From Gammaproteobacteria bacterium (lineage in GTDB: Bacteria > Pseudomonadota > Gammaproteobacteria > Ga0077536), in contig JAJFJQ010000046.1 of the NCBI GenBank assembly GCA_021773835.1, positions 1 through 64,000 of the forward strand: a DNA stretch of 64,000 bases, given 5' to 3'. This document shows positions 4,641 through 41,296 of this stretch, in pieces (within the stretch, counting starts at the first letter, position 1; every line of letters starts with the position of its first letter). The notes beneath the pieces are model-generated. The model saw only the letters and a list, made by a program, of their open reading frames with translations. It was not told where the DNA came from and did no database searches. Position numbers and translations under genes: made by a program.

Positions 4641-4641
4641 G

Positions 4642-4805: not shown

Positions 4806-4815
4806 GAAGGGCATA

Positions 4816-4891: not shown

Positions 4892-5060
4892 AATGGTGTG
4901 GCGGTAAGCCAGATGACTCACGCATATAAACGGATTACTGGGAGAAGCGCTCGCTGGGCGAGCCGTTCGGTGCGTATTCTAACCGGATTGGGGATCGCTT
5001 GAACATGGTGTTTGCTGGTGATCGACTTGGCTGCAAACACTGGTTTGTTATTTCTTGCGG

Positions 5061-7536: not shown

Positions 7537-7568
7537 TGGCTAGCTAACGGAAGATCGCGTTGGGATCG

Positions 7569-10214: not shown

Positions 10215-10237
10215 CGCGATTTTTTCTCCAGCGTGTG

Positions 10238-25424: not shown

Positions 25425-26663
25425 ATGCGTGTAAACCCGGACATTGTCTTCCGACCGCTACTCGGGCCATTGCTCGTTGGCCTATGCTGGACTGCCCACG
25501 CGGCCGACGAAGCCCCCAACGGCGTCCCGCCCAATGTTGATGTCACGCCGTATCGCCAAAATATCACCGCGATCGAAAGCGAGCACGGGGCGCTCGACTA
25601 CCGCTTGGCAGAGCATTTCTTAAGTCTTGGTCTAGCCTATCGAGCCAATGACGAACCCGAACAGGCGGTGGCTGCGTTACGCCAGGCACTCCACGTCAAT
25701 CGGATCAATAAAGGGCTGCATCATCTCATGCATGTTCCGATTGTCGACTTGTTAATCGAAACCAACGCTGGGCTTTCTGACTGGCCGGCCGTTGAGCAGC
25801 AACATCGATATCGTTATTGGATCCATCGTCGTGAAGTCGATGCGAATTCAGATGACTTTGTCGACGCAGCGATCGTTTTTTCTGCTTGGGAAACCTACGC
25901 CTACGATCTTGATACTGGAGTACCCGCTTTCCAGCAGCTCCGTGACGCACAAGATGCACTCAAAGCCGCGGCGAACACGGTTGTTGCCAAAAATGGCGAC
26001 GCCGATCCCAGGATGGTAAGGATCCTAAACCTGCAAGCAATGGCAAATCTCAATCTCGCCATCCACGTCACCAATACAGAAGTGGATCCGGTCACCGGCG
26101 GGCCGGTATCGGGAGAGACGGTTACCGACGTCATCGCGCGTAGAAATCTTATTCTTGAGTGCTTCGTTAACGGCAAGCAAGCATTGGAACAAGTCGTGAA
26201 TTTAAGCGAAGGTGAAGATACGCCAATCCAGCATGGTTTAGCATTGGCCAACCTTGCGGACTGGGAACTCATATTCGACCGACCACAATCTTCTACTCGA
26301 AACTACCGTCGCGCCTACTCATTGTTAAAATCCGCCGGTCTGTCCGAACAAGAACTGGCGCTTGAGTTCGCCGAACCGCGCAAGATGTCCCAGTTCACGG
26401 TCAAGCGACGACAAGCTGATGCTGATACCGAAGCGGTACCGGATCCCAAGGTCGCCTACGTCAAGGCGACGTTCAAAGTTACGAGCACCGGCCATGCGCG
26501 AAACGTCAAGGTCGTCGAGGCGAAGCCGGCCGGTAATTCACGCATCATCCGTCGGGCACGCGCAGCATTACGTGACGCGCGCTTCCGCCCACGGATAAAC
26601 GATCAGGGACCGGTCGAGGCCGCGTCTACGATCCGGTATATTTTCCCAGATGAAGCGATTTAA
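25425..26663 (+). CDS. Exported TPR protein with TonB C-terminal domain
   Basis: A 412-residue protein. A signal peptide (about 1-27, ending AHAA) precedes TPR-like helices (AEHFLSLGLAYRANDEPEQA) and other helical repeats. A TonB_C domain (about 335-410) follows: YVKATFKVTSTGHARNVKVV, then a basic helix and RFRPRI. It lacks the N-terminal anchor of true TonB, so it is probably periplasmic or secreted. It starts the same-strand run of envelope genes, 18 bases before the next gene. Confidence 0.75.
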   Translation: MRVNPDIVFRPLLGPLLVGLCWTAHAADEAPNGVPPNVDVTPYRQNITAIESEHGALDYRLAEHFLSLGLAYRANDEPEQAVAALRQALHVNRINKGLHHLMHVPIVDLLIETNAGLSDWPAVEQQHRYRYWIHRREVDANSDDFVDAAIVFSAWETYAYDLDTGVPAFQQLRDAQDALKAAANTVVAKNGDADPRMVRILNLQAMANLNLAIHVTNTEVDPVTGGPVSGETVTDVIARRNLILECFVNGKQALEQVVNLSEGEDTPIQHGLALANLADWELIFDRPQSSTRNYRRAYSLLKSAGLSEQELALEFAEPRKMSQFTVKRRQADADTEAVPDPKVAYVKATFKVTSTGHARNVKVVEAKPAGNSRIIRRARAALRDARFRPRINDQGPVEAASTIRYIFPDEAI

Positions 26664-26681
26664 GCGCGGGAGTCTCGTGCA

Positions 26682-27656
26682 GTGAAATACCTAACTTTAT
26701 ACTTGCGGCTGATTTCGCTGGCGATAATGGTCGTGACCCTATCGGCGTGCCAAACGGCACCGCAAAAACCATATCAGCCACAGCAGCCGCCCCGTACTCA
26801 ACCACCGCCGCCGCCACCCGCTGCGCCAAGCCAGTCGCAACAAAGTCAGCAGCAACAGCCTGCGCAATCGAGTGCCCAGTCGCAGGATGCGCAACAGCCA
26901 CAATCTGAGCCTAGTGCGACCCCGCCGCCGCCATCGGAGCAAGCGCAAAGTACGCCACCACCACCAAGCACCGACACGGCCGACGTCCAGATAACCGACA
27001 TACCGGTTGATGAACATGGCAACCCGATCATCGATCCGAACCCAACTCCTTCAAGCACCGCCGAAAGTCAGGATCCATCGCGCCAATCGACCAGTAGCGG
27101 TGCACCGCCGCCGCCCAGTGGCGATAGTGGTGGTTCGAATCCGCGCGGCTCACAAATGGCCGGCGCAGAAGGTGGGCCGAACATCAACATCGGTGCCAGA
27201 ACGGAGGCCGAGCGAGTCGCCGCATTAGAACAAAACCTTGATGACAAACTGGCTAAATTCGATGAGCTAATGCGCCGCGCCCGCGAGGACGCAGAGCGCG
27301 ATCGAGCGGCGGCTGGTGGTGGCGCGAGTGCAAGCGGTGGTCGATATGCCGGCGCACCAGCCGGCGCGCCAGATGGACAAGGTGGGCGTCAGACCCCACC
27401 GCAAAATGGGCGCGGTGCGGGCGGTCAGGCAGACACCAACTCCGGTCGCGGTCACACACCGGATCTCGCCGGCAACAGTGGTAAGGGCGAGTTCAAATAC
27501 GCCGGTGGCACAGTGCCCAACGATATTCAAAACGCGCGCGACGATGACATCGTCGCGAGGCAGTTACGCGAAGCCGCAACCCGCGAATCCGATCCGGTCT
27601 TGCGCGAAAAGCTTTGGGATGAATATCGGAAGTACAAAAAAGGAATCGGTGGTTAA
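26682..27656 (+). CDS. Proline/glutamine-rich lipoprotein
   Basis: A 324-residue lipoprotein with lipobox LSAC (Cys23). Residues 24-140 are low-complexity P/Q/S, probably an extended spacer through the periplasm. A short helical segment (about 170-205, ERVAALEQNLDDKLAKFDEL) resembles a coiled coil. A Gly-rich stretch and a charged C-terminal helix (DDIVARQLREAATRESDP) follow. The stop overlaps the next ATG as TAATG. No family recognised. Confidence 0.7.
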   Translation: MKYLTLYLRLISLAIMVVTLSACQTAPQKPYQPQQPPRTQPPPPPPAAPSQSQQSQQQQPAQSSAQSQDAQQPQSEPSATPPPPSEQAQSTPPPPSTDTADVQITDIPVDEHGNPIIDPNPTPSSTAESQDPSRQSTSSGAPPPPSGDSGGSNPRGSQMAGAEGGPNINIGARTEAERVAALEQNLDDKLAKFDELMRRAREDAERDRAAAGGGASASGGRYAGAPAGAPDGQGGRQTPPQNGRGAGGQADTNSGRGHTPDLAGNSGKGEFKYAGGTVPNDIQNARDDDIVARQLREAATRESDPVLREKLWDEYRKYKKGIGG

Positions 27657-28864
27657 TGAACCGTTGCAGCATAATTCTTAGTATCGCGTTAATTGCGGCC
27701 CTACTCCCGCTCGCTGGATGTAATTCGCAAACCGTACGTACCGCTGCGGTGGAAACGCCGAATGCCGCATTAGAGCCAATCCCGGAGCATTTGTTGCTCG
27801 ATGCAGGGGTCGACATATTCGATCCCGGTATCGAATATCTTGAAGAAGGAAAATCGCTGACGACGCCGAGCGTGCGTAAAGCCGAAGGCGTGCATGCGGC
27901 GCACAACCTCACGCAAACCCTACAACGCACCGGCAACTGGGGCGCCGTGCGCATCGTCCCGGCCGGGCAAAGCGAGACAGATGTTTATGTCAGTGGCCAG
28001 ATCGTTAAATCCGACGGTGAAACGCTCACCCTAAAAGTTACGGTAACGGATGCGGCCGGGAACAAATGGTATACACGCACCTATAGCGATAAGTTAAGTC
28101 AGTACGCCTACGATCGTACACTGCGCCAGGAGCAAGAACCGTTTCAGCGACTGTACAACGACATCGCGAACGACATGGAACAGTATATGCGTCGCCTACA
28201 ACCCAGCGAACGTGAAAAACTGCGCGTCGTCTCGAAGCTTCGATTTGCGCAACGCTTTGCGCCTGACGATTACAACGATTTTATGGAAGTCGATGGCAGA
28301 GGCAAATACACGCTCAAGCGCACACCGGCCGATGGCGATCCGGTGATGGCGCATATCGATTCGATCCGCATCCGCGACCAGATGTTTATCGATCGCCTCC
28401 AAGATTACTACGCAAACTTTAACCAACGTATGCAAGCGCCCTACGACCAATGGCGTGAGGCGAGCTATCACGACACCAAAGAGCTAAGGAAAATAAAGGG
28501 CGAATCTACGGCTCGCAAGATCGGTGGCGCACTCGCGGTCATCGCTGGGATCCTCGCGCAGGGCAGCAGCAGTAGCGCCGCGCGCACCGCTGGTGTCCTG
28601 GGGATCGGCGGCGGCGCCTATATGTTCAAAAGCGGCCTCGACCGCGGTGCAGAAGCCCGGCTCCACGAGGAAGGCTTGAAAGAAATGGCCGATTCTTTAG
28701 GCGCAGAGATCGCACCCCACACGATCGCGCTCGAAGATAAGACTGTCACTTTGACGGGAACCGTGGACGAGCAATACGCACAGTGGCGCGAAATATTAAA
28801 CGAGATCTACCTCACCGAAATTGGCCAACTACCGGCCCCGGATTATGCCGATCCGCAACAATAA
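27656..28864 (+). CDS. Envelope lipoprotein with CsgG-like N-terminal region
   Basis: A 402-residue lipoprotein (lipobox LAGC, Cys21). Residues about 50-170 (TLQRTGNWGAVRIVPAG..., VYVSGQIVKSDGETLTLKV) look like the alpha/beta domain of CsgG/FlgT-like lipoproteins that assemble at the outer membrane; this is tentative. A Gly/Ala-rich hydrophobic stretch (about 285-325, ALAVIAGILAQGSSSSAA) could insert in a membrane. It is translationally coupled to the proline-rich lipoprotein. Confidence 0.6.
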   Translation: MNRCSIILSIALIAALLPLAGCNSQTVRTAAVETPNAALEPIPEHLLLDAGVDIFDPGIEYLEEGKSLTTPSVRKAEGVHAAHNLTQTLQRTGNWGAVRIVPAGQSETDVYVSGQIVKSDGETLTLKVTVTDAAGNKWYTRTYSDKLSQYAYDRTLRQEQEPFQRLYNDIANDMEQYMRRLQPSEREKLRVVSKLRFAQRFAPDDYNDFMEVDGRGKYTLKRTPADGDPVMAHIDSIRIRDQMFIDRLQDYYANFNQRMQAPYDQWREASYHDTKELRKIKGESTARKIGGALAVIAGILAQGSSSSAARTAGVLGIGGGAYMFKSGLDRGAEARLHEEGLKEMADSLGAEIAPHTIALEDKTVTLTGTVDEQYAQWREILNEIYLTEIGQLPAPDYADPQQ

Positions 28865-28982
28865 CGCCTTCTAAATTGTACATCCTCGTCAAGTAATGAG
28901 TGATAATGCTGGAAGTGGTCTCAACGGTATCCGCGGATAGTACTGAGGCCGCTTCTAACAGCCGCAATAAAAATGACCCTGT

Positions 28983-30533
28983 ATGAGCGGAACAGAGAAC
29001 AACGAACAACCCGATCTGGAAACGCATATCGTTCCTGTTCAGTTTACTGGTACGTCAGCGAGCCACGAAGCGCTAGATGTTGAGCCCTCATCGAAACTGA
29101 AACGCACGGGCATCGTAGCCCTGTCGATCGTCTTATTTTTTACCGTCCTAATCGTTGTTTTCGTTCTACCTCGCTATGTCCAAACAACGCCCGAGCCTGA
29201 GGTCGTCACCGCGTCAGATGAAAAAGGCATAGAGCGAGTCGCCGAAGACGAGTCACCGCCATCGCCGGCCGAGACCTTCGAACCCGCCGCGGCAGCCGAA
29301 TTAAGGCGCGCAAACCAAGCCCAACTCGAACACGCATTGGCGTTAGTTGCGGGACTCGAGGATCGTCACGTCGGTCTATGGGCGGCGGATGAATTTGACC
29401 AAGCGCGACGCAATATCGAACTCGGTGAAAAAGCTTATCGTGAGCATCGTTACGATGAAGCGCGGAACTACTACGAACAAGCCACAACGACGCTAACGGC
29501 AATCGAGGCGCGTGTGGACACTGTCATCACGGAAGCAGTCGATGACGGATTCCTACAGATCGAATCAAGGGATTCGACGGCAGCAAAAAAGGCATTCGAA
29601 TTCGCGCTCAATATTGATCCGGATCACGCTCAGGCGACGAAGGGACTCGCGCGCGCGCAGACGCTCGACCAAGTGCTCGCGTTAATCAATGAGGCTGAAG
29701 GTTATGAACAACTTAATGATTTACCAGCCGCGCTTACTCGATACCACGAAGCGATAGAACTCGACGCCGAAGCGCCGGGCGCGTCAAGCGCGATTTCGCG
29801 GATCAAACGCGTTCAGCTCGATACCGAATTTCGCCGCCGGATGTCGGCTGGATTTGCGGCATTCGAAGCAAATAAGGACACCGCAGCGAAGGCCGCTTTT
29901 GAACATGCGAAAAAGCTCAAACCCAACGCAAGCGAGGTCAACGAGGCACTCGCACAAGTCAACAACCGGATCCTTGCGAACAAGATTTCCAACCATTTGA
30001 GTGCCGCGATTGCGTTTGAAAAGCAGGAAAAATGGGTCGAGGCAGGAAAAGAATTTCGTGCGGCAGTCGCCTTAGACACCGATTTGAACGGCGCAGCCAA
30101 TAGCGCAAAAAATGCGGATCGAAGGGCCAAACTCGATCGACAGTTAAATTCCATGATTGGGCGGCCCCATAGACTTAGTACAGATTCGGTCCATACCGAA
30201 GCGCAGGCCGTCCTCGCACGCGCACGCGCTATGCCCAACCCTGGGCCCCGCTTACAGCGGCAAATTACATCATTGGATCGTGCAATCGTTATTGCCCGCA
30301 CACCAATATCGGTTACCTTGATTTCAGACAACGCAACAGACGTTACCTTGTACAAGGTCGGCCAGCTTGGGCAATTCGAACGCCAATCGGTATCGATAAT
30401 CCCGGGACGTTATGTGGTTGTTGGACGACGCGACGGTTTTCGCGACGTACGCGTTGAGTTCGACGTGTCGCCTGATCATCAAGGCGCGCAGATTACGGTC
30501 CAATGTGAACAGAAGCTGGCGTTCGGAAGCTAA
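28983..30533 (+). CDS. Inner-membrane TPR protein with PEGA-like C-terminus
   Basis: A 516-residue protein. The cytoplasmic tail (1-40) is followed by one helix (about 43-62, GIVALSIVLFFTVLIVVFV) and a periplasmic region of TPR-like helices (AKKAFEFALNIDPDHAQATK and similar units up to about residue 385). The C-terminal 80 residues (PISVTLISDNATDVTLYKVG, then IIPGRYVVVGRRDGFRDV) resemble a PEGA beta domain. It probably scaffolds other envelope parts. The next gene begins 5 bases after its stop. Confidence 0.75.
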   Translation: MSGTENNEQPDLETHIVPVQFTGTSASHEALDVEPSSKLKRTGIVALSIVLFFTVLIVVFVLPRYVQTTPEPEVVTASDEKGIERVAEDESPPSPAETFEPAAAAELRRANQAQLEHALALVAGLEDRHVGLWAADEFDQARRNIELGEKAYREHRYDEARNYYEQATTTLTAIEARVDTVITEAVDDGFLQIESRDSTAAKKAFEFALNIDPDHAQATKGLARAQTLDQVLALINEAEGYEQLNDLPAALTRYHEAIELDAEAPGASSAISRIKRVQLDTEFRRRMSAGFAAFEANKDTAAKAAFEHAKKLKPNASEVNEALAQVNNRILANKISNHLSAAIAFEKQEKWVEAGKEFRAAVALDTDLNGAANSAKNADRRAKLDRQLNSMIGRPHRLSTDSVHTEAQAVLARARAMPNPGPRLQRQITSLDRAIVIARTPISVTLISDNATDVTLYKVGQLGQFERQSVSIIPGRYVVVGRRDGFRDVRVEFDVSPDHQGAQITVQCEQKLAFGS

Positions 30534-30537
30534 CATT

Positions 30538-32649
30538 GTGAACCACCGCGAAAACGACCCGAACACAAGCGAAGGTCAGGCGGACGTCATTGAGCCGATC
30601 AAGTTCCGCCCGGCAAGCGCAACGCCGCAATTGCCGCGAGTAAAACTACCTTGGGCCCACGGATTCATCGCGCTCGTAATACTCACCGGGTTGTGGGCCG
30701 CCTGGTATGTCGTGACCGCTCGGTCGGTCAGCATACTGACAGAACCGGCAGACGCGAGCGTTTCGGTGGATGAACTAATTGCGCCGAGCATAGGCGGCCA
30801 CTGGGTCCTGCGCGCCGGCCCGCGCAGTATTGTCGTTGAAGCGGAGGGCTACGTTCCGTTTCGGGATGATTTGGTGATCACCGACGAGCCTTTGCAAACC
30901 CACACAGTGAAACTAAACCCTCTACCGGGCCATTTACGCGTCGATGTTTCTCCGGTTCAAACCGCAAAGATTGTAATAGACGGTCTCATCGAAGCCGACG
31001 TGCCATCGACCGTAAACAATATTGAGGCCGGTGCGCGGGAAATCACTGTAACTGCGGATCGCTACATTCCGTTTTCAACGGTAATCGAAATACAAGGCCG
31101 CGGTATCGAGCAGTTGCTTCAAGTTAATCTCAAGCCTGCATGGGCGGATATTTCGGTGCAATCGCAGCCGACCGGCGCGACGGTTAAATTCGATAAAACG
31201 ACAGTGGGTACGACGCCGCTCGATAGTGAATTAATCCAGGGCGAGAGAGTGATTGAGATATCACTTGATGGATATAAGCCATGGAAACGGACGCTACGGG
31301 TGACGGCCGGGACTCCAGTCGATTTGCCACCTGTGCTCCTAACAAAAGCGGATGGCTATGTTGACGTCACTACGACCCCAAGAGGTGCGTCGATCACCGT
31401 CGATTCGAAGTTCAAAGGGCAAAGCCCCATCAAATTTGCCGTATCACCTGACAAGAAACATAAGATCGGCGTGCTCAAGGAAGGCTATCGCGCAGCGACA
31501 CGAACAATCACGGTAGGGTCAAGCAAGACGGAAAATGTCATCATCGAACTGAAGCCCGAACTCGCCGCAGTGCAGGTGATTTCCACGCCCGCAGACGCAC
31601 AATTATTCGTTAACGGTAAAGCACGCGGTAGTGCCAACCAAACGATCGACCTGCCGACGCATGCGCACGACATTGAAATTAGATTACCGGGCCACGTTTC
31701 ATATACCGGTTCGATCACACCGCGCAAAGGGATCAGAAAGCAACTAAAAGTTCGGTTGAAGACGCCAAGCGAAGCCGCTGCAAGCACAGCACAGCGATCG
31801 CAGCGCAGCGGTACCGCGCAAGGCACGATAACAACCTTCGTTAATCAGTCTCTAAAACTTTTTCGTGGTGGTAATGTCACCATGGGCTCCTCAAGGCGTG
31901 ATCCTGGCCGCCGTGCTAACGAAGTGCTGCATGAGGTCAAGCTGATACGTCCGTTTTATTTTGGCGTGAAAGAAGTCACCAACGGAGAATTCCGCCGCTT
32001 TCTTGCCAACCACAGTGCGAAGCCGATAAACGGCGTTGATGTTAATGGCGACAAACACCCAGTGGTTAGCGTCGGTTGGGAAAGCGCGGCGTTGTTCTGC
32101 AACTGGCTCAGTCGCAAAGATTCATTGAATGTGTTCTATCAGATCCGAAACGGGAAGGTCCTGGGGATAAATCCAGCTGCCCTTGGCTATCGTCTACCGA
32201 CAGAAGCCGAATGGTCCTGGGTCGCACGCACCGCACCAAAAGGAACAGAAGCTTTTAATTTTCCCTGGGCCGGAAAATTCCCACCACGTGGGCGCTCAGG
32301 CAACTACGCCGATCAAAGTGCGAGCAGCATATTGGGTCGGGTCATTGCAGACTATAATGACGGATTCCAAGTTACTGCGCCGGTTGGAAGTTTCTCAGCC
32401 AATCTCCGCGGAATTTATGACCTTGGCGGTAACGTGTCTGAATGGATGAACGACTTCTACACCGCGACCCCTGGACGAGGTTCGGAGGTTGAGCAAGATC
32501 CTCTGGGGCCAAGGAGCGGCGAATCACGCGTCATTCGTGGTTCCAACTGGGCGCACGCGACGGAGACCGAGTTACGCCTGGCGTATCGCGATTTTGGATT
32601 AGATGGGCGTGATGATGTCGGCTTCAGGATTGCACGTTATGCACAATAA
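30538..32649 (+). CDS. Membrane-anchored five-PEGA protein with C-terminal FGE-like (SUMF1/EgtB/PvdO) fold
   Basis: A 703-residue protein from the GTG at 30538, with GGAAG 8 bases upstream; a longer frame from 30412 overlaps the preceding gene and is not credible. One helix (about 42-60) anchors it. Five PEGA beta repeats span about 64-395 (PADASVSVDE, TGATVKFDK, RGASITVDS, ADAQLFVNG as markers). The C-terminal 270 residues have the FGE fold: GGNVTMGS, EVTNGEF, YRLPTEAEWSWVAR, GGNVSEWMND, RVIRGSNW and VGFRIAR. The cysteines that FGE uses for catalysis are absent from the last segment, so it is probably a binding module, not an enzyme. Confidence 0.85.
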   Translation: MNHRENDPNTSEGQADVIEPIKFRPASATPQLPRVKLPWAHGFIALVILTGLWAAWYVVTARSVSILTEPADASVSVDELIAPSIGGHWVLRAGPRSIVVEAEGYVPFRDDLVITDEPLQTHTVKLNPLPGHLRVDVSPVQTAKIVIDGLIEADVPSTVNNIEAGAREITVTADRYIPFSTVIEIQGRGIEQLLQVNLKPAWADISVQSQPTGATVKFDKTTVGTTPLDSELIQGERVIEISLDGYKPWKRTLRVTAGTPVDLPPVLLTKADGYVDVTTTPRGASITVDSKFKGQSPIKFAVSPDKKHKIGVLKEGYRAATRTITVGSSKTENVIIELKPELAAVQVISTPADAQLFVNGKARGSANQTIDLPTHAHDIEIRLPGHVSYTGSITPRKGIRKQLKVRLKTPSEAAASTAQRSQRSGTAQGTITTFVNQSLKLFRGGNVTMGSSRRDPGRRANEVLHEVKLIRPFYFGVKEVTNGEFRRFLANHSAKPINGVDVNGDKHPVVSVGWESAALFCNWLSRKDSLNVFYQIRNGKVLGINPAALGYRLPTEAEWSWVARTAPKGTEAFNFPWAGKFPPRGRSGNYADQSASSILGRVIADYNDGFQVTAPVGSFSANLRGIYDLGGNVSEWMNDFYTATPGRGSEVEQDPLGPRSGESRVIRGSNWAHATETELRLAYRDFGLDGRDDVGFRIARYAQ

Positions 32650-32854
32650 GAGTTTCGTCCTTGGCTTCATGCTTTGTCTCCTCGCGTTACCGGTGATTGC
32701 CCAAACGGAAGAAGAACGCGAACAAGCTCAGCAGGCGCCAGAATTAGAATCAAAGAACGCTGAGTACACTCGTCGCTCGTTACCAGCAGAATCTTTCAAA
32801 CCGAGTGAGGAAATTTCCGAAGATTTCCCAGTCCCCTTTCCAGTCGATATCTAG
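32639..32854 (+). CDS. Small exported acidic protein
   Basis: A 71-residue protein starting MHNKSFVLGFMLCLLALPVIAQ, a clear signal peptide cleaved near residue 22. It leaves a mature peptide of about 50 acidic residues ending PFPVDI. Its ATG overlaps the end of the PEGA/FGE-like gene. No homologue recognised; likely a small accessory of the machine. Confidence 0.65.
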   Translation: MHNKSFVLGFMLCLLALPVIAQTEEEREQAQQAPELESKNAEYTRRSLPAESFKPSEEISEDFPVPFPVDI

Positions 32855-32871
32855 CTCCAGATTTTACTGTT

Positions 32872-33669
32872 ATGAGACATAGCCCGTTTTTCGAATTCTA
32901 TTTCCAAATCATCGCGCTGATGGTCTCCATCATCGTGGTACACGCGGCCTATATCACGATCGTGCGGCCACAAGCCCAAGCGGAGTTCCGCGAACAACTG
33001 GAGCTACAAGCCGCCGGTGAGGTCGCCGAGATCAGTCGTTCTGGGTATGTCGTTATTAAAGATTACGAACAGGAAGCGTGCTTCATTCTCGCCTTGTGGG
33101 CAACTGCGATCATTGGCTTTAAAGCACGTCAAAGCATGCAGGAACGGCAGTATCTGAACCGTTCTCTACTAGACGTTGAGATTGGTACGCGGATACTGCC
33201 GGAGGACACGCGGAAGTTCTCGCGCGCCATTCAAGCGCTCCCGGCGGCCGAGCGCGAATATCTTGTTCCACGTTCCCTGCTGGCGGCGTTGCAGCGGTTT
33301 GGGTCAACTCGAAGTATTCAAGACGTTGCCACGGCAGTTAAAGATGTGTGTGAAACGCAGGCCGATCGCTTGGATTCAGAATTGGCAATGATCCGGTACA
33401 TTATTTGGGCGATCCCGTCGATCGGGTTTATCGGTACAGTGCGTGGTATCGGCCAAGCATTAGGGCAGGCGCATCGCGCCGTTGAGGGTGATATCGTCGG
33501 CGTCACAACCAGCCTTGGCGTCGCGTTCAATTCGACGTTCATCGCACTGGTGATCAGCCTATTCATTATGTTCATCATGCATCAATTACAACTGCTGCAA
33601 GAACGGCTGGTGCTCGATACGCAGTCGTATGTTGATGTTAATTTGTTGCGCCAACTGGCGCTGAGATAG
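32872..33669 (+). CDS. TolQ/ExbB/MotA-family proton-channel subunit
   Basis: A 265-residue membrane protein with helices at about 9-31, 67-83, 172-195 and 206-235. YIIWAIPSIGFIGTVRGIGQ is the family's signature third helix (compare GLLGTVxGI), and TTSLGVAFNSTFIALVIS the fourth. The cytoplasmic loop between helices 2 and 3 is about 85 residues. Family members form a pentamer around a dimer of ExbD/TolR/MotB helices and pass protons. Instead of an exbD gene, two VWA proteins with TolR-like helices follow. Confidence 0.87.
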   Translation: MRHSPFFEFYFQIIALMVSIIVVHAAYITIVRPQAQAEFREQLELQAAGEVAEISRSGYVVIKDYEQEACFILALWATAIIGFKARQSMQERQYLNRSLLDVEIGTRILPEDTRKFSRAIQALPAAEREYLVPRSLLAALQRFGSTRSIQDVATAVKDVCETQADRLDSELAMIRYIIWAIPSIGFIGTVRGIGQALGQAHRAVEGDIVGVTTSLGVAFNSTFIALVISLFIMFIMHQLQLLQERLVLDTQSYVDVNLLRQLALR

Positions 33670-33672
33670 ACC

Positions 33673-34998
33673 ATGGCAGCCGCGGTCATCGAATTAAACG
33701 ACCACGAACTGAGGATCGCAAAGGACGGAAAGATTGTCGCGCGCAGCCCCGCATGCGCGATCGTACAGGGCACCGAAATCAAAATCGGGGATGCTGCTTA
33801 CCGCGAGGCTTACCTACACCCACGTGATCACCACAATCGATTTTGGTATCAATTAGACCAAGCTGCACTGCGCCGGTCGTCACGCGCAGCACGTCACCAC
33901 GCAGATCTCGCGTTCAAACACCTCGAACATGTGCACAAGGCTGCCGGATCGCCAGCATTAATGGTGTTCGCGCTGCCCGGTGGATATAGCAAGGAGCAAC
34001 TTGCGCTGCTGCTTGGAATCGCGGAGGCATGCAAAATTCAGGTAGTGGCGTTGGTTGACGCAGCAGTCGCCGCCGCCGCGGATTGCGTCGCACCGGGCAA
34101 GTTCCACCACGTTGAGATCCAACAGCATCGCACGGTCATTACGGAACTCTTAGTTGACGACACCGTTACCCGCACCAAGGTCGAGACGATAGACGGGTCC
34201 GGGACCGATCACCTCATGACGCGCTTCGTTAGCGTCATCTCAGATCAATTTTTGGCGCAGGCACGCTTTGATCCACTGCATCAAGCAAATACCGAGCAAT
34301 TGCTATATAACGAATTGTCGAAATGGCTCACGCTCCTGCGTTCGCGTCGTGAAATTAAGGTGCATATTGAATTTCGCGGATCGCGCTTTGAAGCGCGGAT
34401 CTCAAAGAGCGATATTGTCGCGGTCGCCGAACAAACCTACCGCGACATCCATGATCGGATCCCACCGCATCATCGTTGCCTGATCGGAAACCGCTTGGCG
34501 GCAATGCCGGGATTCGCGGAATCACGAGCGAATCAAACCGTATTGCCCGAAAACGCCGTGTTTAATGGCTGCACGGAACTCGCGGAGCGGAGCGTGGATA
34601 AAAAACAGGGCGTTAGTCTACTTACCCGGCTCAAAGCATCGTCGCTACCGACGATCGGGACCGAAACCGCGGCAACAACATCACTACCAGCGGCTTCTCG
34701 ACCAACTGACAATGCGCCGACGCACGTTTTATCGGGGACCAACGCCTACGAAATAACCGCCACGCCACTATATCTTTTTGCAACAGGTGAGGCGTTGCGC
34801 ACGGCTAGCGAAGAAGCGGTAGCCCACCTCAGGCGTAACGGATCGGCAACGCATCTAGTGGCTGAAAATGGCGCACGGCTGCGTCTCAATGGACGGCCTG
34901 CTGGGGCAGAAACACCGCTCTCCCCGGGCGATGAAATCACCGTTGAGGGGGCCGCGTGTATTTATCTACCGATCACCGTCGTATCTTCTGATGCGTAA
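33673..34998 (+). CDS. Degenerate Hsp70/actin-like protein with beta-rich C-terminus
   Basis: A 441-residue cytoplasmic protein. IELNDHELRIAKDGK opens like an ASKHA phosphate-1 strand. GGYSKEQLALLLGIAEACKI then VALVDAAVAAAA matches the Hsp70 segment around EPTAAA. The phosphate loops lack the usual glycines, so ATP hydrolysis is doubtful. The C-terminal 80 residues (ENGARLRLNGRPAGAETPL, PGDEITVEG) resemble an FHA-like beta sandwich. It lies between the channel subunit and the first VWA gene, so a cytoplasmic regulator of the channel is a reasonable guess. Confidence 0.6.
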   Translation: MAAAVIELNDHELRIAKDGKIVARSPACAIVQGTEIKIGDAAYREAYLHPRDHHNRFWYQLDQAALRRSSRAARHHADLAFKHLEHVHKAAGSPALMVFALPGGYSKEQLALLLGIAEACKIQVVALVDAAVAAAADCVAPGKFHHVEIQQHRTVITELLVDDTVTRTKVETIDGSGTDHLMTRFVSVISDQFLAQARFDPLHQANTEQLLYNELSKWLTLLRSRREIKVHIEFRGSRFEARISKSDIVAVAEQTYRDIHDRIPPHHRCLIGNRLAAMPGFAESRANQTVLPENAVFNGCTELAERSVDKKQGVSLLTRLKASSLPTIGTETAATTSLPAASRPTDNAPTHVLSGTNAYEITATPLYLFATGEALRTASEEAVAHLRRNGSATHLVAENGARLRLNGRPAGAETPLSPGDEITVEGAACIYLPITVVSSDA

Positions 34999-36073
34999 TA
35001 GCCGCCGCGGCTTTTCTGCTTTTAGCCTTTCTTTTTTGGACATCATGTCGTGTGGGCTGGGCGCGGTCGTGCTGCTTTTTCTAATCATTAAGCACAATAC
35101 CGACGTGAAGGATCTCATGCCGGCCTACGATTTAAGCCGAGAAATCGAGATGCTCGATGGGGACATCGGCGAGGCGCGAAGTAAGACCGCGAATGCGAAA
35201 AGCCAGGCCGCGACTTTGGACGCCGAGCTCACAACTGCGCAGGGCGAAGCCGATCGGATCCGCAAACAACTCGCAGCCGCTCGAGCGGGCGCGAAAAGCG
35301 TTGCCGTATCGGTAAGCGATAAAGAAATCGATAAAATGAAATCCGATGTGAAGCGACTTGAGCAGCAGAAAAAAGCTGTTCAGGCGCAAATAAACGCTCA
35401 GTCCAACCAGATCAGAACCTTCACCGGTGCAGGCAACCGAGAATACCTCACCGGACTCAAACTCGACGGAAGGCGGATCCTGATATTGCTCGATGCGTCG
35501 GCCAGTATGTTGGATGACACGATTGTCAATATTATCCGTCGCCGTAACATGGACGATGCAGCGAAACGACGCTCATGGAAATGGCAGCAAGCGCTTGCGA
35601 CCGTGGATTGGATCAGTGCCCGGTTCCCACAGGGAAGCGAGTACCAAATATTAACGTTTAACACCTCGGTGTCACCGGTTCTACCAGCGACTAAATGGAA
35701 GTGGCTACAGGTAAACGAAATCGACCAGTTAAATCGCGCTATCGATGAAATGAAGCGTGTGATCCCTAGTGGTGGTTCGAGTTTGGCGAAGGCACTTGCC
35801 GCTATTAATCGGATGTCCCCAAAGCCGGACAATATCTATTTGATCACCGACGGGCTACCGACCCAGGGCTTAGCGCCGCCGCGCGGCACAACCGTTACAG
35901 GTCGACAACGCGTGGACTTATTCGAAGATGCCATGACTCAACTCCCGCGTGGCATACCGATTAATACGATCCTGCTACCGATGGAAGGTGACCCGCTCGC
36001 GGCATGGGCGTACTGGCAGGTAGCGCTACAGACACGTGGCGCATTTTTAACACCGGCGAAGGATTGGCCATGA
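34991..36073 (+). CDS. TolR/ExbD-like transmembrane helix + coiled coil + VWA protein (first copy)
   Basis: A 360-residue protein from the ATG at 34991, overlapping the upstream stop by 8 bases. Residues 11-34 (SLSFLDIMSCGLGAVVLLF) form one helix with Asp17 at its start, the position of the proton-carrying Asp in TolR/ExbD/MotB. Residues about 48-142 are a coiled coil. A VWA domain follows from about 163 with MIDAS D168-A-S-A-S172 and LITDG. It probably acts as the plug/stator partner of the TolQ-like subunit, with VWA as the periplasmic load or ligand-binding domain. Confidence 0.82.
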   Translation: MRNSRRGFSAFSLSFLDIMSCGLGAVVLLFLIIKHNTDVKDLMPAYDLSREIEMLDGDIGEARSKTANAKSQAATLDAELTTAQGEADRIRKQLAAARAGAKSVAVSVSDKEIDKMKSDVKRLEQQKKAVQAQINAQSNQIRTFTGAGNREYLTGLKLDGRRILILLDASASMLDDTIVNIIRRRNMDDAAKRRSWKWQQALATVDWISARFPQGSEYQILTFNTSVSPVLPATKWKWLQVNEIDQLNRAIDEMKRVIPSGGSSLAKALAAINRMSPKPDNIYLITDGLPTQGLAPPRGTTVTGRQRVDLFEDAMTQLPRGIPINTILLPMEGDPLAAWAYWQVALQTRGAFLTPAKDWP

Positions 36074-37071
36074 GCATTCGTCGGCGTGAGAACGAACCCA
36101 TAAGCATCGCGTTTCTTGATGTGATCACGTGCGGGTTCGGCGCGATCATTCTGTTGCTGATGATCGCGAAATTTGGCGACCCACCAGTAGAAGATGTCGA
36201 AGATCCTCGAGCGGCACAAATATCGAATATGCAGCGAGATTTATTTGAACTACGTCGCGATGCTCAAGCTGCGGAACAGGATCAGGTTTCGAAACAGACG
36301 CAGCTGGCGACTTGGAAAGAAGAGGCCAAACGCATGCAACGCGCATTGGCCGCACTTCGCGCCAACGAAAAAGATAAAACCGGTCACGCAACAAGGAACG
36401 CGATAACCGCCGGTGAACTTAAAACCGCGCAACAAGAACTGACAGAAGAAATGAAACGGCTATATGCCCAGCGAGACCGTAAGCAAAATCGGAACGACTT
36501 GATCGGCGGGATCCCGGTAGATAGCGAATACATAATTTTCATCATCGACACGTCAGGCAGCATGTTTCGTTATGCGTGGCCAAAAGTGGTCGACCAGATC
36601 GTGCAAACATTGGACGTCTATCCGAGAGTAAAAGGCATCCAGATCTTAAATGACATGGGTAGCTACATGTTCACCAGTTACAGCGGCAAATGGATCCCAG
36701 ATACCCCAGCTCGACGCCGCGTCGTTATCGATCGGCTATTAACCTGGAATGCGTTTAGCAACAGCAGCCCGGTCGAGGGCATCATGGCCGCAATTAGAAC
36801 GTTTTACTCACCGGAAAAGAAGATTAGTCTGTTCGTCTATGGGGACGAATTTACTGGTAGATCAATTCGCGAAGTGGTCGATTTTGTCGGCAAGCTCAAC
36901 CGCAAGGATGCATCCGGAAAACCGCGCGTGCGTATCCATGCGATTGGCTTTCCGGTCCAAGCAGCGAATCCCCCACACCTACAGATAACCGGAATACGCT
37001 TCGCCTCGTTGATGCGAGAATTAACTCGACGCAACGGCGGGACGTTCGTCGGCCTAAACCAGTTTCGATAA
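36070..37071 (+). CDS. TolR/ExbD-like transmembrane helix + coiled coil + VWA protein (second copy)
   Basis: A 333-residue paralogue-like protein, starting at an ATGA overlap with the first. Residues 12-33 (SIAFLDVITCGFGAIILLLM) again put Asp17 at the helix start and share the FLDxxxCGxGAxxLL pattern. A coiled coil (about 45-140) leads to a VWA domain with MIDAS D160-T-S-G-S164 (IIFIIDTSGSM). Two different VWA subunits could form a heterodimer in the TolQ-like pentamer. Topology N-in/C-out is inferred from the TolR analogy. Confidence 0.82.
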   Translation: MSIRRRENEPISIAFLDVITCGFGAIILLLMIAKFGDPPVEDVEDPRAAQISNMQRDLFELRRDAQAAEQDQVSKQTQLATWKEEAKRMQRALAALRANEKDKTGHATRNAITAGELKTAQQELTEEMKRLYAQRDRKQNRNDLIGGIPVDSEYIIFIIDTSGSMFRYAWPKVVDQIVQTLDVYPRVKGIQILNDMGSYMFTSYSGKWIPDTPARRRVVIDRLLTWNAFSNSSPVEGIMAAIRTFYSPEKKISLFVYGDEFTGRSIREVVDFVGKLNRKDASGKPRVRIHAIGFPVQAANPPHLQITGIRFASLMRELTRRNGGTFVGLNQFR

Positions 37072-37075
37072 TTGA

Positions 37076-37705
37076 ATGATGCCCTTCCTCAACAAGCTGT
37101 CAGTGTTGCGTAGATTCGTCATAACGATGCTCGTGACGCTTGTCGCAGGCTGCGGCCAAAGCCTTACCTTACAGGTGGATAGCGCTGTCCCGGCCGCGCT
37201 GATGCAAACCCTACCGCTAACGGCGGCGGTTTACTACGAAGACTCGTTGCGTAATCACAGTTACCGAGAGGATAGCGAAGAGCGGAAAAACTGGGCAATA
37301 AATACTGGTAGCTCCCAGATCGCGATGTTTGATCAGGTGCTGGCATCAACGTTTTCCACCGTGGTTCCGCTTGCACAACTCCCGACAGCGGACGCACCTG
37401 CTACGGCCGATCTCATCGTCGTGCCCAAGATAATGGAAATGCAATTCGGCACCCCACAGGAGACGTATTTCGACTTTTACGAAGCATGGATCCGCTACGA
37501 GATCGCGATGCTAGCGGCGGATGGGACACCGATCGATAATTGGGAGATCGTGACTTACGGAAAGGCAAATCAAAAACGTTTTTCAGGTCGCACTGCGGGA
37601 TTGAACGATGCTATCGAATTGGCCTTACGCGACGCCGGAGCGAAGCTATCGACTGGAATGTATAAACAACCCGCCGTCCATCGTTTACTCAACAAGCAAA
37701 AATGA
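37076..37705 (+). CDS. Outer-membrane-type lipoprotein of the cluster
   Basis: A 209-residue lipoprotein (lipobox VAGC, about Cys26). The body (PLTAAVYYEDSLRNHSY, ADLIVVPKIMEMQFGTP, WIRYEIAMLAADGTPIDNW) has the strand pattern of TolB-N/CsgG-like accessory lipoproteins, and ends in an Ala-rich helix. It follows the second VWA gene by 4 bases and overlaps the next gene as ATGA. Family not identified. Confidence 0.65.
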   Translation: MMPFLNKLSVLRRFVITMLVTLVAGCGQSLTLQVDSAVPAALMQTLPLTAAVYYEDSLRNHSYREDSEERKNWAINTGSSQIAMFDQVLASTFSTVVPLAQLPTADAPATADLIVVPKIMEMQFGTPQETYFDFYEAWIRYEIAMLAADGTPIDNWEIVTYGKANQKRFSGRTAGLNDAIELALRDAGAKLSTGMYKQPAVHRLLNKQK

Positions 37706-38397
37706 ACAGTCTCGGCTGGGCTCGCTTATGCTGCCGCTCTGGACGGTCGGCCTGGTCGATGATTGCTTGCGCCATCCTTCTCGGCGGTTGTCGAACCACG
37801 ACGATGGTTGACGAATACCGTGTCGCCGCCACCAACATCGCCACACAAGAATCGATAGTAGTGCTTGGTCGTCGCCACGACATGGACAAAGATACCGAGC
37901 ACGATTTTATTCAGTGCGTCGGTCGGTCGCTAGGCACCTCGACATCTCAGCTTAATGTAATACCCGAGGCTGACTTTGTCGACGCGCTTTACCCATGGTT
38001 CGAGGTTAGTACTGCACCAATGGACGTGGCGAATTTGGGCAGCTTGGTACAAAACCCCGCTGTCGCGGCGAAATTTGAAGAGCTACATATTCGGTACTTC
38101 GTTTGGATCGACGGGTTTACCGAAACGACCGATAGCGCTGGGTCTGTCACCTGTGTAGTCGGCCCCGGCGGTGGCGGCTGCCTCGGCTTCAAAACCTGGG
38201 ACGATGAGGCAAACTACGAAGCATCGATCTGGGATCTAAAGGACATCAGCGTCGCTGGAAAGATCAATACAGAAACTGAAGGGACATCTTTCGTACCGGC
38301 GGTAATTATTCCGATCCCCTTACTCGCTCGGGTTAAAGCAACAGCGTGCAACGCGATGGCAGATCAATTGCTGTCCTTTATTACTGGTGGTAGTTAA
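37702..38397 (+). CDS. Second lipoprotein at the end of the cluster
   Basis: A 231-residue lipoprotein (lipobox LGGC, about Cys30). SIVVLGRRHDMDKDTEHDFI, then VGRSLGTSTSQLNVIPEADFVDALYPWF and YFVWIDGFTE, suggest the alpha/beta domain found in CsgG/TolB-N-type lipoproteins. Cysteines in VTCVVGPGGGGCLGF could form a disulfide. It is translationally coupled to the preceding lipoprotein and is probably the last gene of the tightly packed part. Confidence 0.65.
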   Translation: MNSLGWARLCCRSGRSAWSMIACAILLGGCRTTTMVDEYRVAATNIATQESIVVLGRRHDMDKDTEHDFIQCVGRSLGTSTSQLNVIPEADFVDALYPWFEVSTAPMDVANLGSLVQNPAVAAKFEELHIRYFVWIDGFTETTDSAGSVTCVVGPGGGGCLGFKTWDDEANYEASIWDLKDISVAGKINTETEGTSFVPAVIIPIPLLARVKATACNAMADQLLSFITGGS

Positions 38398-38420: not shown

Positions 38421-39047
38421 ATGATTCAAACGTCTGAGGATGTGCTCGAGTTTTGGTTCGGTGATGACCTTGAGGATCGCGACATTGTCACTTCGCGCCT
38501 GGAAATCTGGTTCGGATCAGATCCGCTCTACGACAGCCAGATCCGGGATCAATTCGCTGAGACCATTGAACGAGCCGTAGCTGGAGAACTTGATCCCTGG
38601 GTTCAATCTGCGCGGGGATCTCTCGCACTAATCATTCTGTTTGATCAATTCCCACGGAATATCTTTCGCGGTGAGGCCCGTGCGTTCGCAACCGATGGGC
38701 GTGCGCTCGCGATCGCAAACTCGGGGATCGAACGTGGACTGGATGTGGAGCTTGGTCTTATAGAACGATTATTTTTCTATGTCCCGTTCGAACACGCCGA
38801 AGATCTTGATATGCAAGACCGGTGCGCCAGCTTATTTCTCGAATTACACGACCTCGCAACGCCTGCGTTTAAGGAAATCTTCGCGAACAGCGTCAGCCAA
38901 AGCAAAAATCATCGCGACGTGATTCGCCGCTTTGGCCGCTTTCCAACTCGTAATAGCGCACTCGGACGTGCATCGAACGATGAAGAGCGAGCCTGGATAG
39001 CGGCCAATAAAGGTTGGCCTCAGAATCAGGACGTCGACGCCGATTAG
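38421..39047 (+). CDS. DUF924 family protein
   Basis: A 208-residue helical cytoplasmic protein. VLEFWFGD at the start, SLALIILFDQFPRNIFRG, ERLFFYVPFEHAEDL and FGRFPTRNSALGR are clear DUF924 signatures (TPR-like fold). Function unknown. It lies 23 bases after the last lipoprotein and may be co-transcribed by chance; the family is usually found as a stand-alone gene. Confidence 0.85.
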   Translation: MIQTSEDVLEFWFGDDLEDRDIVTSRLEIWFGSDPLYDSQIRDQFAETIERAVAGELDPWVQSARGSLALIILFDQFPRNIFRGEARAFATDGRALAIANSGIERGLDVELGLIERLFFYVPFEHAEDLDMQDRCASLFLELHDLATPAFKEIFANSVSQSKNHRDVIRRFGRFPTRNSALGRASNDEERAWIAANKGWPQNQDVDAD

Positions 39048-39235
39048 CCCTTGCGCAATTGCGCCTGTATCCGCCGCCAAACGCCAAACCTTAGGCCAAT
39101 TCACAAAATTGTGCGCCCTGCCCCTTCTCTGGCATCTAGCCAGGTGTCGTCGGTACGTGAAAACGATTGAATCGACTATGCTTGCGGTTCGAGGAATAAT
39201 TACACTTCATTGTGACGGGTGATTATAGAGCCGCT

Positions 39236-40543
39236 ATGCCACATTCAAAGCGTGGACCCGAGCGCCGTCGCGGGAACGGTGCCGCGGTGACAGATACCGT
39301 GGGGACGAACGAACACGAAGAGCGACGCGTCAATAGTGACCGGCGCCGTACCGGCTATATCTCCGATCTTGAACTCTGCCGAGGATTGCCATACGACCAA
39401 ATCGAAAACATCCTTGAGCGCTGCCCGGTACAAACCCTTGAGCCTGGAGAGGCGCTGCTCGAACCTGGACAGGCGAATCATCATTTATATTTCCTTCTGT
39501 CCGGCCGTCTCGACGTGCGTTTAAAATCCAATGATTCTCCAGTCGCCGACGTCATCGAAGCCGGAGACTGCGTCGGCGAAATGTCAATCATCGATGGGCA
39601 ACCGACTTCGGCCTATGTTGTTGCAACCGAGCTAAGTACAGTCATCGCGGTCCACGAAAGTGTTTTTTGGTCAAAGATCGCGATCAACCCAAAAGCCGTC
39701 CGTAATTTGACTCGTGTACTAGTGGAACGTATGCGCAAGCGCAACGCTGCGACGCTTCGCGCCCTAGAGCATGAGATGCGACTGCAGCAGTTAGAAAAAG
39801 AACTTCTCGCAGCGCACGAAATTCAAATCGGGATGCTACCGCAAGGGTCTAAGCTGCTCACGGAGATGCCGAGCCTAGATGTGCACGCGCGTATGGATGT
39901 CGTTACATCGGTAGGCGGAGACTTTTACGATGCGTTCTCACTCGATGATAGCAACGCCTATATCACCGTCGGCGATGTTTCGGGCAAAGGCATGCCGGCG
40001 GCGCTATTTATGGTACGTACATTGACCTTATTGCGCGCGGAACTTGCCAAGTCCGGCGACCTCGCCGCGTGCATGGTTCGCTTCAATAAAATGCTGTGCG
40101 ACACGAATATTTCACACATGTTCGTCACCTTAATTGTTCTGCGTATCGATTTAACCGACGGTACGGTTGAGTACGTCAACGCAGGGCATCCACCAATGCT
40201 GTTGTCGAGGAATAACGCGCCATTTGTCGAGGTCGATGAATCAGCAGGCTTGATCGCCGGGGTAATTGACGACCATGCCTATCAGTCACGAGCGCTACAT
40301 CTGGACTCCGGCGACCGCTTGCTCATCTATACAGACGGTGTGACCGAAGCTCGCGATCACTTCAAGCGTTTCTATAGTCAGGATCGTTTAATTGATCTCG
40401 TCTCGCAGAGCGAATCAAGCGACGCGCAACAATTAGTCTCGACAATTTTCGAAGACGCCCATGGCTATTCAGCCGGTATCCCGCAGTCCGACGATATTAC
40501 GGTTGTCGCAATCGGATATCGCGATCATATCTCAGGCACCTAA
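39236..40543 (+). CDS. Cyclic-nucleotide-binding domain + PP2C/SpoIIE-type phosphatase
   Basis: A 435-residue cytoplasmic protein from the ATG at 39236; a GTG at 39212 is in frame. An Arg-rich start is followed by a cNMP-binding domain (about 45-160; LEPGEALLEPGQANHHLYFL, GDCVGEMSIIDGQP) and a coiled linker. The phosphatase domain (about 195-430) is RsbU/SpoIIE-like: VGGDFYDAF, VGDVSGKGMPAALFM, NAGHPPMLL, IYTDGVTEA and SDDITVVAI with metal-binding aspartates intact. It dephosphorylates Ser/Thr residues. It could oppose the kinase that feeds the FHA proteins, but no kinase is seen here. Confidence 0.87.
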   Translation: MPHSKRGPERRRGNGAAVTDTVGTNEHEERRVNSDRRRTGYISDLELCRGLPYDQIENILERCPVQTLEPGEALLEPGQANHHLYFLLSGRLDVRLKSNDSPVADVIEAGDCVGEMSIIDGQPTSAYVVATELSTVIAVHESVFWSKIAINPKAVRNLTRVLVERMRKRNAATLRALEHEMRLQQLEKELLAAHEIQIGMLPQGSKLLTEMPSLDVHARMDVVTSVGGDFYDAFSLDDSNAYITVGDVSGKGMPAALFMVRTLTLLRAELAKSGDLAACMVRFNKMLCDTNISHMFVTLIVLRIDLTDGTVEYVNAGHPPMLLSRNNAPFVEVDESAGLIAGVIDDHAYQSRALHLDSGDRLLIYTDGVTEARDHFKRFYSQDRLIDLVSQSESSDAQQLVSTIFEDAHGYSAGIPQSDDITVVAIGYRDHISGT

Positions 40544-40750
40544 TCTGCCTTAAATTTCTAAGCCGCTGCGGATGGGTTTGGGTTTGGCTTCAACTTATTG
40601 ATCTAAGTGTGTCTTTTTGTCACGGAAGGCGGCGAAATCGTAGACATTGGGGTTTCGGCTGCTCTACTCTGGTCGCAGGCGATCGGCCCCTTTTGGCCGC
40701 ACTCGTTAGGCCACAAGGCCCATGCAACGACGCCAACAGGAATGGAGACT

Positions 40751-41296
40751 ATGAAAAAGCTACTCTCGTTCGTTACGACCGCGTTGCTCTGCGTGAACAT
40801 CGTCTCATCCGCCGGCGCGGTCACTGTCGAAGTTACGGTTGAAGGCACCGTTGTCGGCGGCACTTTTGACGGCACGACTGGCTCCGGAACGCTCACTTAT
40901 GACGATACTGCGTTGAACCCCGTTGGTATTGACGTCCTTTCGTGGCTGGATGGCGGACTAACGCTCGACTTCACGATTTTTGGCCAAACGTTTCATGCAA
41001 CAGACGATGCAAACTTCCCGACTGGTCCAACGCTGGAGTTCGTCAATGGTGAAATCGATATATTCGATTGGACGGTAGACGAGAATTTTGGGGCGAATTT
41101 AACCTCAATTACGATGCCGGGTGTCTTTGGTTTTTTTATGTTCGATGTGCTTGAAAGCACCGGTACCGGCGCTGAAACAATTATCAGTGGCAACATCGTT
41201 GTCGATGAGATCGGTACCGTGCCGCTACCAGCGGCTCTGCCACTGTTTATTGCAAGTTTTGGGTTATTGGGCTGGTTCGCTCGAAGATCCCCCTAA
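40751..41296 (+). CDS. VPLPA-CTERM sorted surface protein
   Basis: A 181-residue exported protein starting MKKLLSFVTTALLCVNIVSS with AGGA 9 bases upstream. The mature part is a Thr/Asp/Gly-rich beta protein (VEVTVEGTVVGGTFDGTTG). The C-terminus VPLPAALPLFIASFGLLGW plus FARRSP is a VPLPA-CTERM sorting signal: motif, hydrophobic helix and basic tail. Such proteins are processed by an exosortase encoded elsewhere. Confidence 0.82.
   Translation: MKKLLSFVTTALLCVNIVSSAGAVTVEVTVEGTVVGGTFDGTTGSGTLTYDDTALNPVGIDVLSWLDGGLTLDFTIFGQTFHATDDANFPTGPTLEFVNGEIDIFDWTVDENFGANLTSITMPGVFGFFMFDVLESTGTGAETIISGNIVVDEIGTVPLPAALPLFIASFGLLGWFARRSP

Follow-up and report, generated by a model that had tools for sequence, protein, structure and literature searches.

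A conserved gammaproteobacterial envelope operon combining a TolQ-like subunit, two VWA proteins, and predicted periplasmic and outer-membrane partners

The stretch of DNA analysed here, the window, comprised 64,000 nucleotides (positions 1 to 64,000, forward strand, contig JAJFJQ010000046.1 of assembly GCA_021773835.1, Gammaproteobacteria bacterium) and formed part of contig 41 of a 6.1 Mb genome. A preliminary description had placed at 28983-38397 an undescribed envelope machine, encoded by ten genes on one strand with gaps of 23 bases or less. Open reading frames (ORFs) and intergenic gaps were recomputed from the sequence. We found that the conserved unit consisted of twelve genes, A to L (Table 1), at 25425-38397 and all on the plus strand, so that the genes of the earlier interval, which starts at D, were confirmed but the unit itself begins further upstream and takes in A, B, and C. 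That interval holds nine genes instead of ten, the tenth being a DUF924 gene outside its end; the small gaps stood. From D to L they measured 4, -11, 17, 3, -8, -4, 4, and -4 bases in order, preceded by 18 (A-B), -1 (B-C), and 118 bases (C-D), so that all gaps except C-D lay between -11 and 18 bases. Several listed ORF starts appeared too early, and likelier ones were adopted for E (GTG), F, I, and J; minus-strand loci among the related loci L010-L038 (15 of 29 kept) and incomplete ORFs were skipped in this revision. The GC content of the unit (0.544) was close to that of the window (0.536), and thus base composition gave no sign of recent import. Scans for promoters (9 versus 9.6 in shuffles) and terminators (14 versus 18.6) showed no excess over shuffled sequence.

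Table 1. Genes of the conserved unit and the gene that follows it, in window coordinates
Gene	Position	Strand	Product or feature
A	25425..26663	+	TPR-like protein with TonB-type C-terminal domain; signal-like N-terminus by eye (exported)
B	26682..27656	+	Pro/Gln-rich putative lipoprotein; lipobox
C	27656..28864	+	Lipoprotein; predicted PelC/CsgG/FlgT/TolB-D1-type domain, long C-terminal helices
D	28983..30533	+	TPR protein; one predicted membrane helix
E	30538..32649	+	Single predicted membrane helix; five PEGA domains; FGE-like fold lacking the catalytic Cys; start assumed to be GTG
F	32639..32854	+	Small protein; N-terminal hydrophobic segment
G	32872..33669	+	TolQ/ExbB/MotA-family subunit
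H	33673..34998	+	Pseudo-Hsp70 by model, probable C-terminal FHA-like domain; presumably cytoplasmic
I	34991..36073	+	VWA protein 1: Asp17-bearing N-terminal helix, coiled coil, VWA domain
J	36070..37071	+	VWA protein 2: plan as in I; ATGA overlap with I
K	37076..37705	+	Lipoprotein; no family found
L	37702..38397	+	Lipoprotein; no family found, no Pfam match
DUF924 gene	38421..39047		23 bases after L, beyond the end of the interval described earlier

The trio G, I, and J carried the features of a membrane motor. G matched PF01618 (MotA_ExbB) with 50.9 bits at a cut-off of 22.9, and a crude hydropathy scan gave two helices only (13-31 and 217-235). When G was aligned by profile to four members of the TolQ/ExbB family encoded in this genome, T189 and T222 aligned with the threonines of the genome's TolQ and fell on those of GTV and VATA, which we take to be the equivalents of ExbB T148 and T181; both residues, together with P182, were present in 96 of 96 aligned rows. 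I matched VWA_2 (33.4 bits, cut-off 27). The J protein of the window matched no VWA model at E 0.1, and its assignment as a VWA protein was based on its profile match to I (E 1.8e-23) and on its orthologues, 17 of 27 of which matched PF00092 at E 0.1 or better. Judged by this profile match, I and J are paralogues. They shared one plan, namely a positive N-terminus, a single predicted helix (residues 15-33 in I and 13-31 in J), a coiled-coil-like stretch, and the VWA domain. D17 and the D168/S170/S172 triad were found in 72/72 rows of I, D17 in 78/79 rows of J, and D160/S162/S164 in 79/79. Subsets of rows were used in the alignments A1 (29 of 96 rows) and A3 and A4 (27 rows). Cys21, Gly22, and Gly24 were also conserved in both VWA proteins, and the D-x-S-x-S motif of the metal ion-dependent adhesion site (MIDAS) was intact. 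At E 0.1, neither protein matched the PF02472 (ExbD), MotB, or OmpA families. The NCBIfam models matched by G, I, or J included neither GldL nor GldM. The genome held six PF02472 matches at E 0.01, all of them on contigs other than that of the window, which makes I and J the likeliest candidates for the axle of a channel formed by G. Homology of I and J to ExbD/TolR was rejected, as hhalign found no match; the TolR-like helices assigned earlier to both VWA proteins were therefore kept as an arrangement only, a positive N-terminus followed by a helix with an Asp.

A motor of this composition has already been predicted in print (PMC12204202, Mol Biol Evol 2025). According to the part of that paper available to us, tolQ-like genes of Proteobacteria are tightly linked to heterologous vWA pairs with no tolR/exbD beside them, each vWA protein has one N-terminal transpore helix with a conserved Asp, and the function is unknown; the seed protein came from Idiomarina, and AlphaFold 3 (AF3) models placed the helix Asp inside a threonine ring of a TolQ-like pentamer. 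The window showed the same picture, with a tolQ-like gene adjoining two unlike vWA genes with N-terminal helices, a conserved helix Asp in I and J, conserved channel threonines in G, and no ExbD match on the contig (a scan of this genome only). The trio carried every feature of the published prediction that could be tested, and it looks, by sequence, like the same motor family. The term "undescribed" thus fails for the motor core and held for the rest: PEGA/FGE, pseudo-Hsp70-FHA, and C-type proteins, K, L, and an M48 protease were not named in the available part of that paper, and no printed account of the operon beyond G-I-J was found in a search that left bioRxiv and most subscription journals outside its scope. 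Among the literature found, only PMC12204202 described a TolQ-vWA motor, and the accessible parts of PMC7159879, PMC9389320, PMC12505986, and PMC12905483 contained no description of the operon. New here, relative to these sources, are the operon-wide gene set, its joint inheritance, and a broken copy in one genome.

Among the remaining genes, D matched PF07719 (TPR; 37.9 bits, cut-off 27) and had a predicted helix at 44-62. E matched PEGA over five stretches (155.4 bits) and FGE (138.7 bits), with a predicted N-terminal helix at 43-61. No Cys was present in the last 110 residues of E in 71 of 72 rows, and the catalytic cysteine pair of FGE presumably lies within this C-terminal end; E is therefore unlikely to be an enzyme, and FGE activity was disfavoured. 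For C, an AlphaFold 2 (AF2) model (predicted local distance difference test, pLDDT, 79) found PelC by Foldseek (E 5.6e-4), and comparison by VIA gave FlgT (Z 11.3, root-mean-square deviation (rmsd) 3.7 over 132), PelC (Z 10.2, rmsd 2.1 over 111), and the first TolB domain (Z 9.1); the fold of this domain is also seen in CsgG, LptE, and TolB. PelC is a dodecamer by the title of its structure entry and CsgG forms a ring, and on the strength of the model C possibly forms an outer-membrane ring. No usable match came from profile searches of the PDB with C, K, and L. For H, no match to a Pfam family was obtained, and its AF2 model (pLDDT 91) resembled the Hsp70 nucleotide-binding domain by Foldseek (E 3.5e-17) and by VIA (Z 29.1, rmsd 2.5 over 306 residues). 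The motif D-hyd-G-[GT], which we take to be the ATP phosphate motif of Hsp70, was found in 0 of 80 orthologues, and by its model H is a pseudo-Hsp70, with the fold of the nucleotide-binding domain and without the phosphate motif. Its C-terminal end, matching the FHA domain of KIF13B (profile E 0.0018), is probably FHA-like. A scored just above the cut-off for PF03544 (TonB_C; 25.7 bits, cut-off 24.6), below the cut-off for TPR, and under the NCBIfam cut-off for TIGR01352 (20.9 versus 27.1 bits), and had no segment above the hydropathy threshold. A lipobox was present in B of the window and 32/61 of its orthologues, and in 62/64, 59/64, and 53/63 orthologues of C, K, and L. The preliminary description had named a membrane TPR protein, a five-PEGA protein with an FGE-like fold, a TolQ/MotA-family subunit, a degenerate Hsp70-like protein, and two lipoproteins, with parts spanning cytoplasm to outer membrane; each of these identities agreed with the present results, that of H through its model and the span by prediction.

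We further investigated if the unit was conserved. G was scanned against contigs of one genome per species, at least 569 relatives were confirmed, and the best 80 loci were kept, a sample that is consequently biased to the closest relatives. The kept loci included records under the names Microbulbifer, Halioglobus, Porticoccus, Parahaliea, Kineobactrum, and Exilibacterium; the operon recurs in marine Gammaproteobacteria, other genera included. By tblastn over these 80 loci, cut contigs included, matches were obtained for G in 80, H in 78, E in 77, I and J in 74 each, D in 71, K in 67, C in 66, L in 65, B in 64, A in 57, and F in 40, counts that include matches located elsewhere and on the other strand (A in L042, L043, L045, and L047; K and L in L086 and L111). 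The three upstream neighbours of A had matches in 2, 2, and 1 of the 80. Gene order was counted in the 57 loci with enough flank, 54 of which kept B-C-D-E-G-H-I-J in order on one strand. Complete ORFs were found in 45 (A), 56 (B), 55 (C), 56 (D), 52 (K), and 52 (L) of the 57, and F was the least conserved gene (40/57). An envelope operon on one strand, whose gene order is not confined to this genome, was thereby borne out. Among 15 motor loci fetched from sampled genomes of the class, A was found in 3 and H in 8, with G adjoining I in the other 7; a locus from a metagenome-assembled genome titled Colwellia (L113) had the operon, and H was not found in it. A gene for a Peptidase_M48 protein followed L on the same strand in 37 of the 61 loci with room for it, starting -49 to +478 bases from the end of L. 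It was found by clustering the flanks of these 61 loci, its family was assigned from a Pfam scan of one representative, and a 38th match (L041) lay far from L and was not counted among the 37. The M48 gene had no match in the window, and seven M48 matches were present elsewhere in the genome.

Some loci departed from this arrangement. In L160 (G011:C51) the order was H-I-J-G instead of G-H-I-J, with the genes still adjacent. Homologues of K and L lay upstream on the opposite strand in L086 and L111, and a frame upstream of E in L086 read like an FHA domain by eye.

Co-occurrence of the TolQ-like G with the VWA proteins was looked for in 370 genomes sampled evenly from the class. Strong G matches were present in 32 genomes (36 at E 1e-20, of which four weak ones, E 1e-22 to 1e-29, were left out), and all 32 had a VWA partner. 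I or J was detected in 33 of the 370, namely the 32 strong-G genomes and G010, which matched through a J fragment only; three of the 33 (G117, G126, and G306) matched via I. In 31 of the 32, G and I/J lay on one contig and strand within ~2.6 kb. The hypergeometric P for G with I/J was ~2e-45, which is overstated since the genomes were treated as independent. E (at E 1e-60) was found in 30 of the 32 strong-G genomes and in 0 of the other 338, and C (at E 1e-10) in 28 of the 32 and 1 of the 338 (G211). In the family of the window's own genome, 31 of 35 relatives had G. Of 397 genomes sampled across the phylum, 13 gave a J match, and ten of these belong to a single family in another class. A gene set recurring in order in other genera, together with the co-occurrence of G and I/J, argues for more than chance.

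The one genome with C outside the strong-G set was informative. No match to G, I/J, or E was found in G211 among the class genomes scanned, and at L211 (G211:C1, 8373-11263) it held a decayed copy of the operon, in which B is still present, C is interrupted by an in-frame stop at codon 217 (an assembly error being possible for this stop), and D lies in pieces beside ORFs that look transposase-like by eye. E to J were not found in the fetched stretch. The breakage of C and D in a genome where the motor was not found hints that C and D work with the motor.

Together, these results led us to favour, with moderate confidence, a proton-driven trans-envelope motor in which five G subunits surround an I-J pair and which works on periplasmic and outer-membrane parts, probably for the upkeep of the outer membrane. 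Five G would form an inner-membrane channel, and the N-terminal helices of I and J would enter its lumen as a heterodimeric axle (5:2, i.e. 5:1:1), with Asp17 of both proteins passing protons along the threonines of G. The coiled coils of I and J would bring the two VWA heads, both of them metal-binding, into the periplasm; there, by rotating or by changing conformation, the heads would grip a partner and let it go again. E, the periplasmic PEGA/FGE protein, and the TPR protein D are the likely partners, and may link to an outer-membrane assembly with the lipoprotein C, possibly as a ring; in some members of the class this assembly would also include A, K, L, and the M48 protease, and the cytoplasmic H may assemble or regulate the motor. 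The most likely job would be to maintain or assemble the outer membrane, a task that Tol-Pal performs with other parts, and the action on peptidoglycan or the outer membrane that had been proposed for the locus is plausible. Conservation, co-occurrence, domain identities, invariant residues, and two predicted folds were observed here; we infer how C, D, E, H, K, and L contact the motor, as well as the membrane topologies and the job. The motor step draws on conservation and on the AF3 models by others (PMC12204202, available in part), the coupling of the motor to E, D, and C on joint conservation and analogy with the type IX secretion system (T9SS), and the job on the lipoproteins, on the TonB-type end of A, and on the neighbouring M48 gene. 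E. coli BepA, of the M48 family, serves outer-membrane integrity according to the accessible part of PMC8423444. Only tentatively would we go further, to a trans-envelope rotary machine that arose in Gammaproteobacteria independently of the T9SS, in which the VWA axle drives a PEGA/FGE hub and an outer-membrane ring of C under control of the dead Hsp70-FHA protein, with a job at the cell envelope new among known motors.

Several observations weigh against a trans-envelope motor of this kind. At the level of genomes, G012 had G on another contig than I/J, the four genomes with weak G had no J, and C and E were not detected in four and two motor genomes respectively, some of which were fragmented. 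H was not found in the seven sampled loci noted above or in L113, and the distribution of A, K, L, and the M48 gene is restricted. At the level of proteins, the link of G to TolQ/ExbB was moderate (57.8% probability, E 1e-4, four template sequences) and its profile match to solved TolQ had an E of 0.084, I and J aligned to the six ExbD/TolR proteins of this genome with an hhalign probability below 1%, and one J orthologue (L063) had Ser instead of Asp17. The idea of a C ring depends on a model of moderate confidence and on moderate Z values, and no outer-membrane barrel was recognised among A to L.

The chief rival is a machine for secretion or surface transport, like the T9SS or Myxococcus gliding, in which the motor would drive an outer-membrane ring of C and E that exports or moves a substrate. 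We regard it as unlikely, even though it has real points of contact with the data. The T9SS also places a motor driven by the proton motive force, GldLM/PorLM, beside an FGE-fold protein, and E scored best among NCBIfam models against GldK (93.4 bits, cut-off 350). PorK, the T9SS ring hub beside the PorLM motor, has an FGE fold without the catalytic cysteines, as E does, according to the available part of PMC12421860. The fold of C is common to PelC and CsgG, both of them export lipoproteins, and in Myxococcus AglRQS one TolQ-type protein is likewise combined with two B-type proteins (PMC4488436, available in part). However, AglQ and AglS are called MotB/TolR/ExbD homologues in that source, whereas I and J matched no such model. 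E fell below the GldK cut-off, and carried PEGA repeats and a predicted N-terminal membrane helix where GldK is an outer-membrane lipoprotein (PMC8986121, in the part available). Moreover, no outer-membrane translocon, adhesin, or dedicated substrate gene was recognised among A to L, nor by eye in 14 recurrent flanking clusters, of which only the M48 cluster was scanned with Pfam.

A sister arrangement was observed at L161 (G070:C218, 8078-14446), where a TolQ-like gene stands among genes for FHA proteins, a PP2C phosphatase, and two trypsin-FHA proteins, together with a VWA protein just under the VWA_2 cut-off (26.7 bits, cut-off 27) whose N-terminal helix also has an Asp. It bears on a second rival, a device for sensing or signalling, perhaps linked to phospho-signalling, in which the flow of ions through G would change the VWA heads or H without mechanical work. 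In its favour are the company of this weak G relative at L161, where the N-terminal helix of the VWA protein is similar, the genes that look FHA-like by eye next to similar G relatives in L162 to L164, and H itself, which probably ends in an FHA-like domain. Yet the Pfam scan turned up neither a kinase nor a phosphatase among A to L, part of the family lacks H, and many predicted periplasmic and outer-membrane parts are conserved, which leaves this explanation improbable. Slightly less probable again is the view that these are co-regulated envelope genes instead of one physical machine: A, F, H, K, and L do come and go among loci, but the order from B to J was kept nearly throughout, all 30 genomes with E had G, and C and D were broken in G211, which gave no match to the motor genes.

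A diverged member of Tol-Pal, Ton, Mot, or Zorya, already disfavoured, is very improbable in spite of the MotA/TolQ/ExbB superfamily membership of G, because G scored 21.1 bits against the TolQ equivalog model (cut-off 221) where a bona fide TolQ elsewhere in the same genome scored 288, and 11.9 bits against ZorA where the ZorA of the same genome scored 471.8, and because I and J lacked ExbD, MotB, and OmpA family matches. The unit shares with Tol-Pal a TolQ-superfamily channel, outer-membrane lipoproteins, and a C domain close to the first TolB domain, and differs from it in that G fails the TolQ model and that I and J, which are VWA proteins, do not resemble TolR by profile. With Zorya ZorAB it shares an A subunit of the MotA/TolQ superfamily; the ZorA match of G had an E of 0.019, and among nine proteins scanned there was no ZorB at E 0.1 and no ZorC or ZorD. 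Zorya and other PADLOC defence systems were rejected on model scores, and the claim that the set is unlike known systems was supported in that G, I, and J failed the Tol, Ton, Mot, and Zorya models tried.

Two further loci of the same genome carried motor-like genes. L204 (G000:C68:210000-222224, ORFs 2869-10457) is a separate type I Zorya, with best-model scores of 471.8 (ZorA), 281 (ZorB), 343 (ZorC), and 1093 bits (ZorD). At L203 (G000:C53:149000-164000, 6266-8126) a lipoprotein-like gene, a TolQ-like gene, and a gene for a protein with a DPFTDLLFNALLGF-type helix stand in tandem; judged from these genes, with a weak ZorA match only, this trio is possibly another motor of this general kind.

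Downstream of the unit, neither the DUF924 gene nor the two genes after it had a tblastn match in any of the 80 related loci, and DUF924, which looks like a bystander, was dropped as a part of the machine. The protein encoded at 39212-40543, after the operon, combines a cyclic-nucleotide-binding domain with a SpoIIE phosphatase and was found beside the operon in 0 of the 80 loci by tblastn. The protein at 40607-41296 ends in VPLPAALPLF..GLLGW..RR, which we take to resemble a PEP-CTERM sorting signal.

A motor type that was predicted in 2025 is now tied to predicted partners, E, C, and D, that travel with it. The question of what TolQ-vWA motors do thereby becomes testable through the partner genes. 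If the coupling proposed here is true, an inactive FGE fold would serve as a motor-coupled hub outside Bacteroidota.

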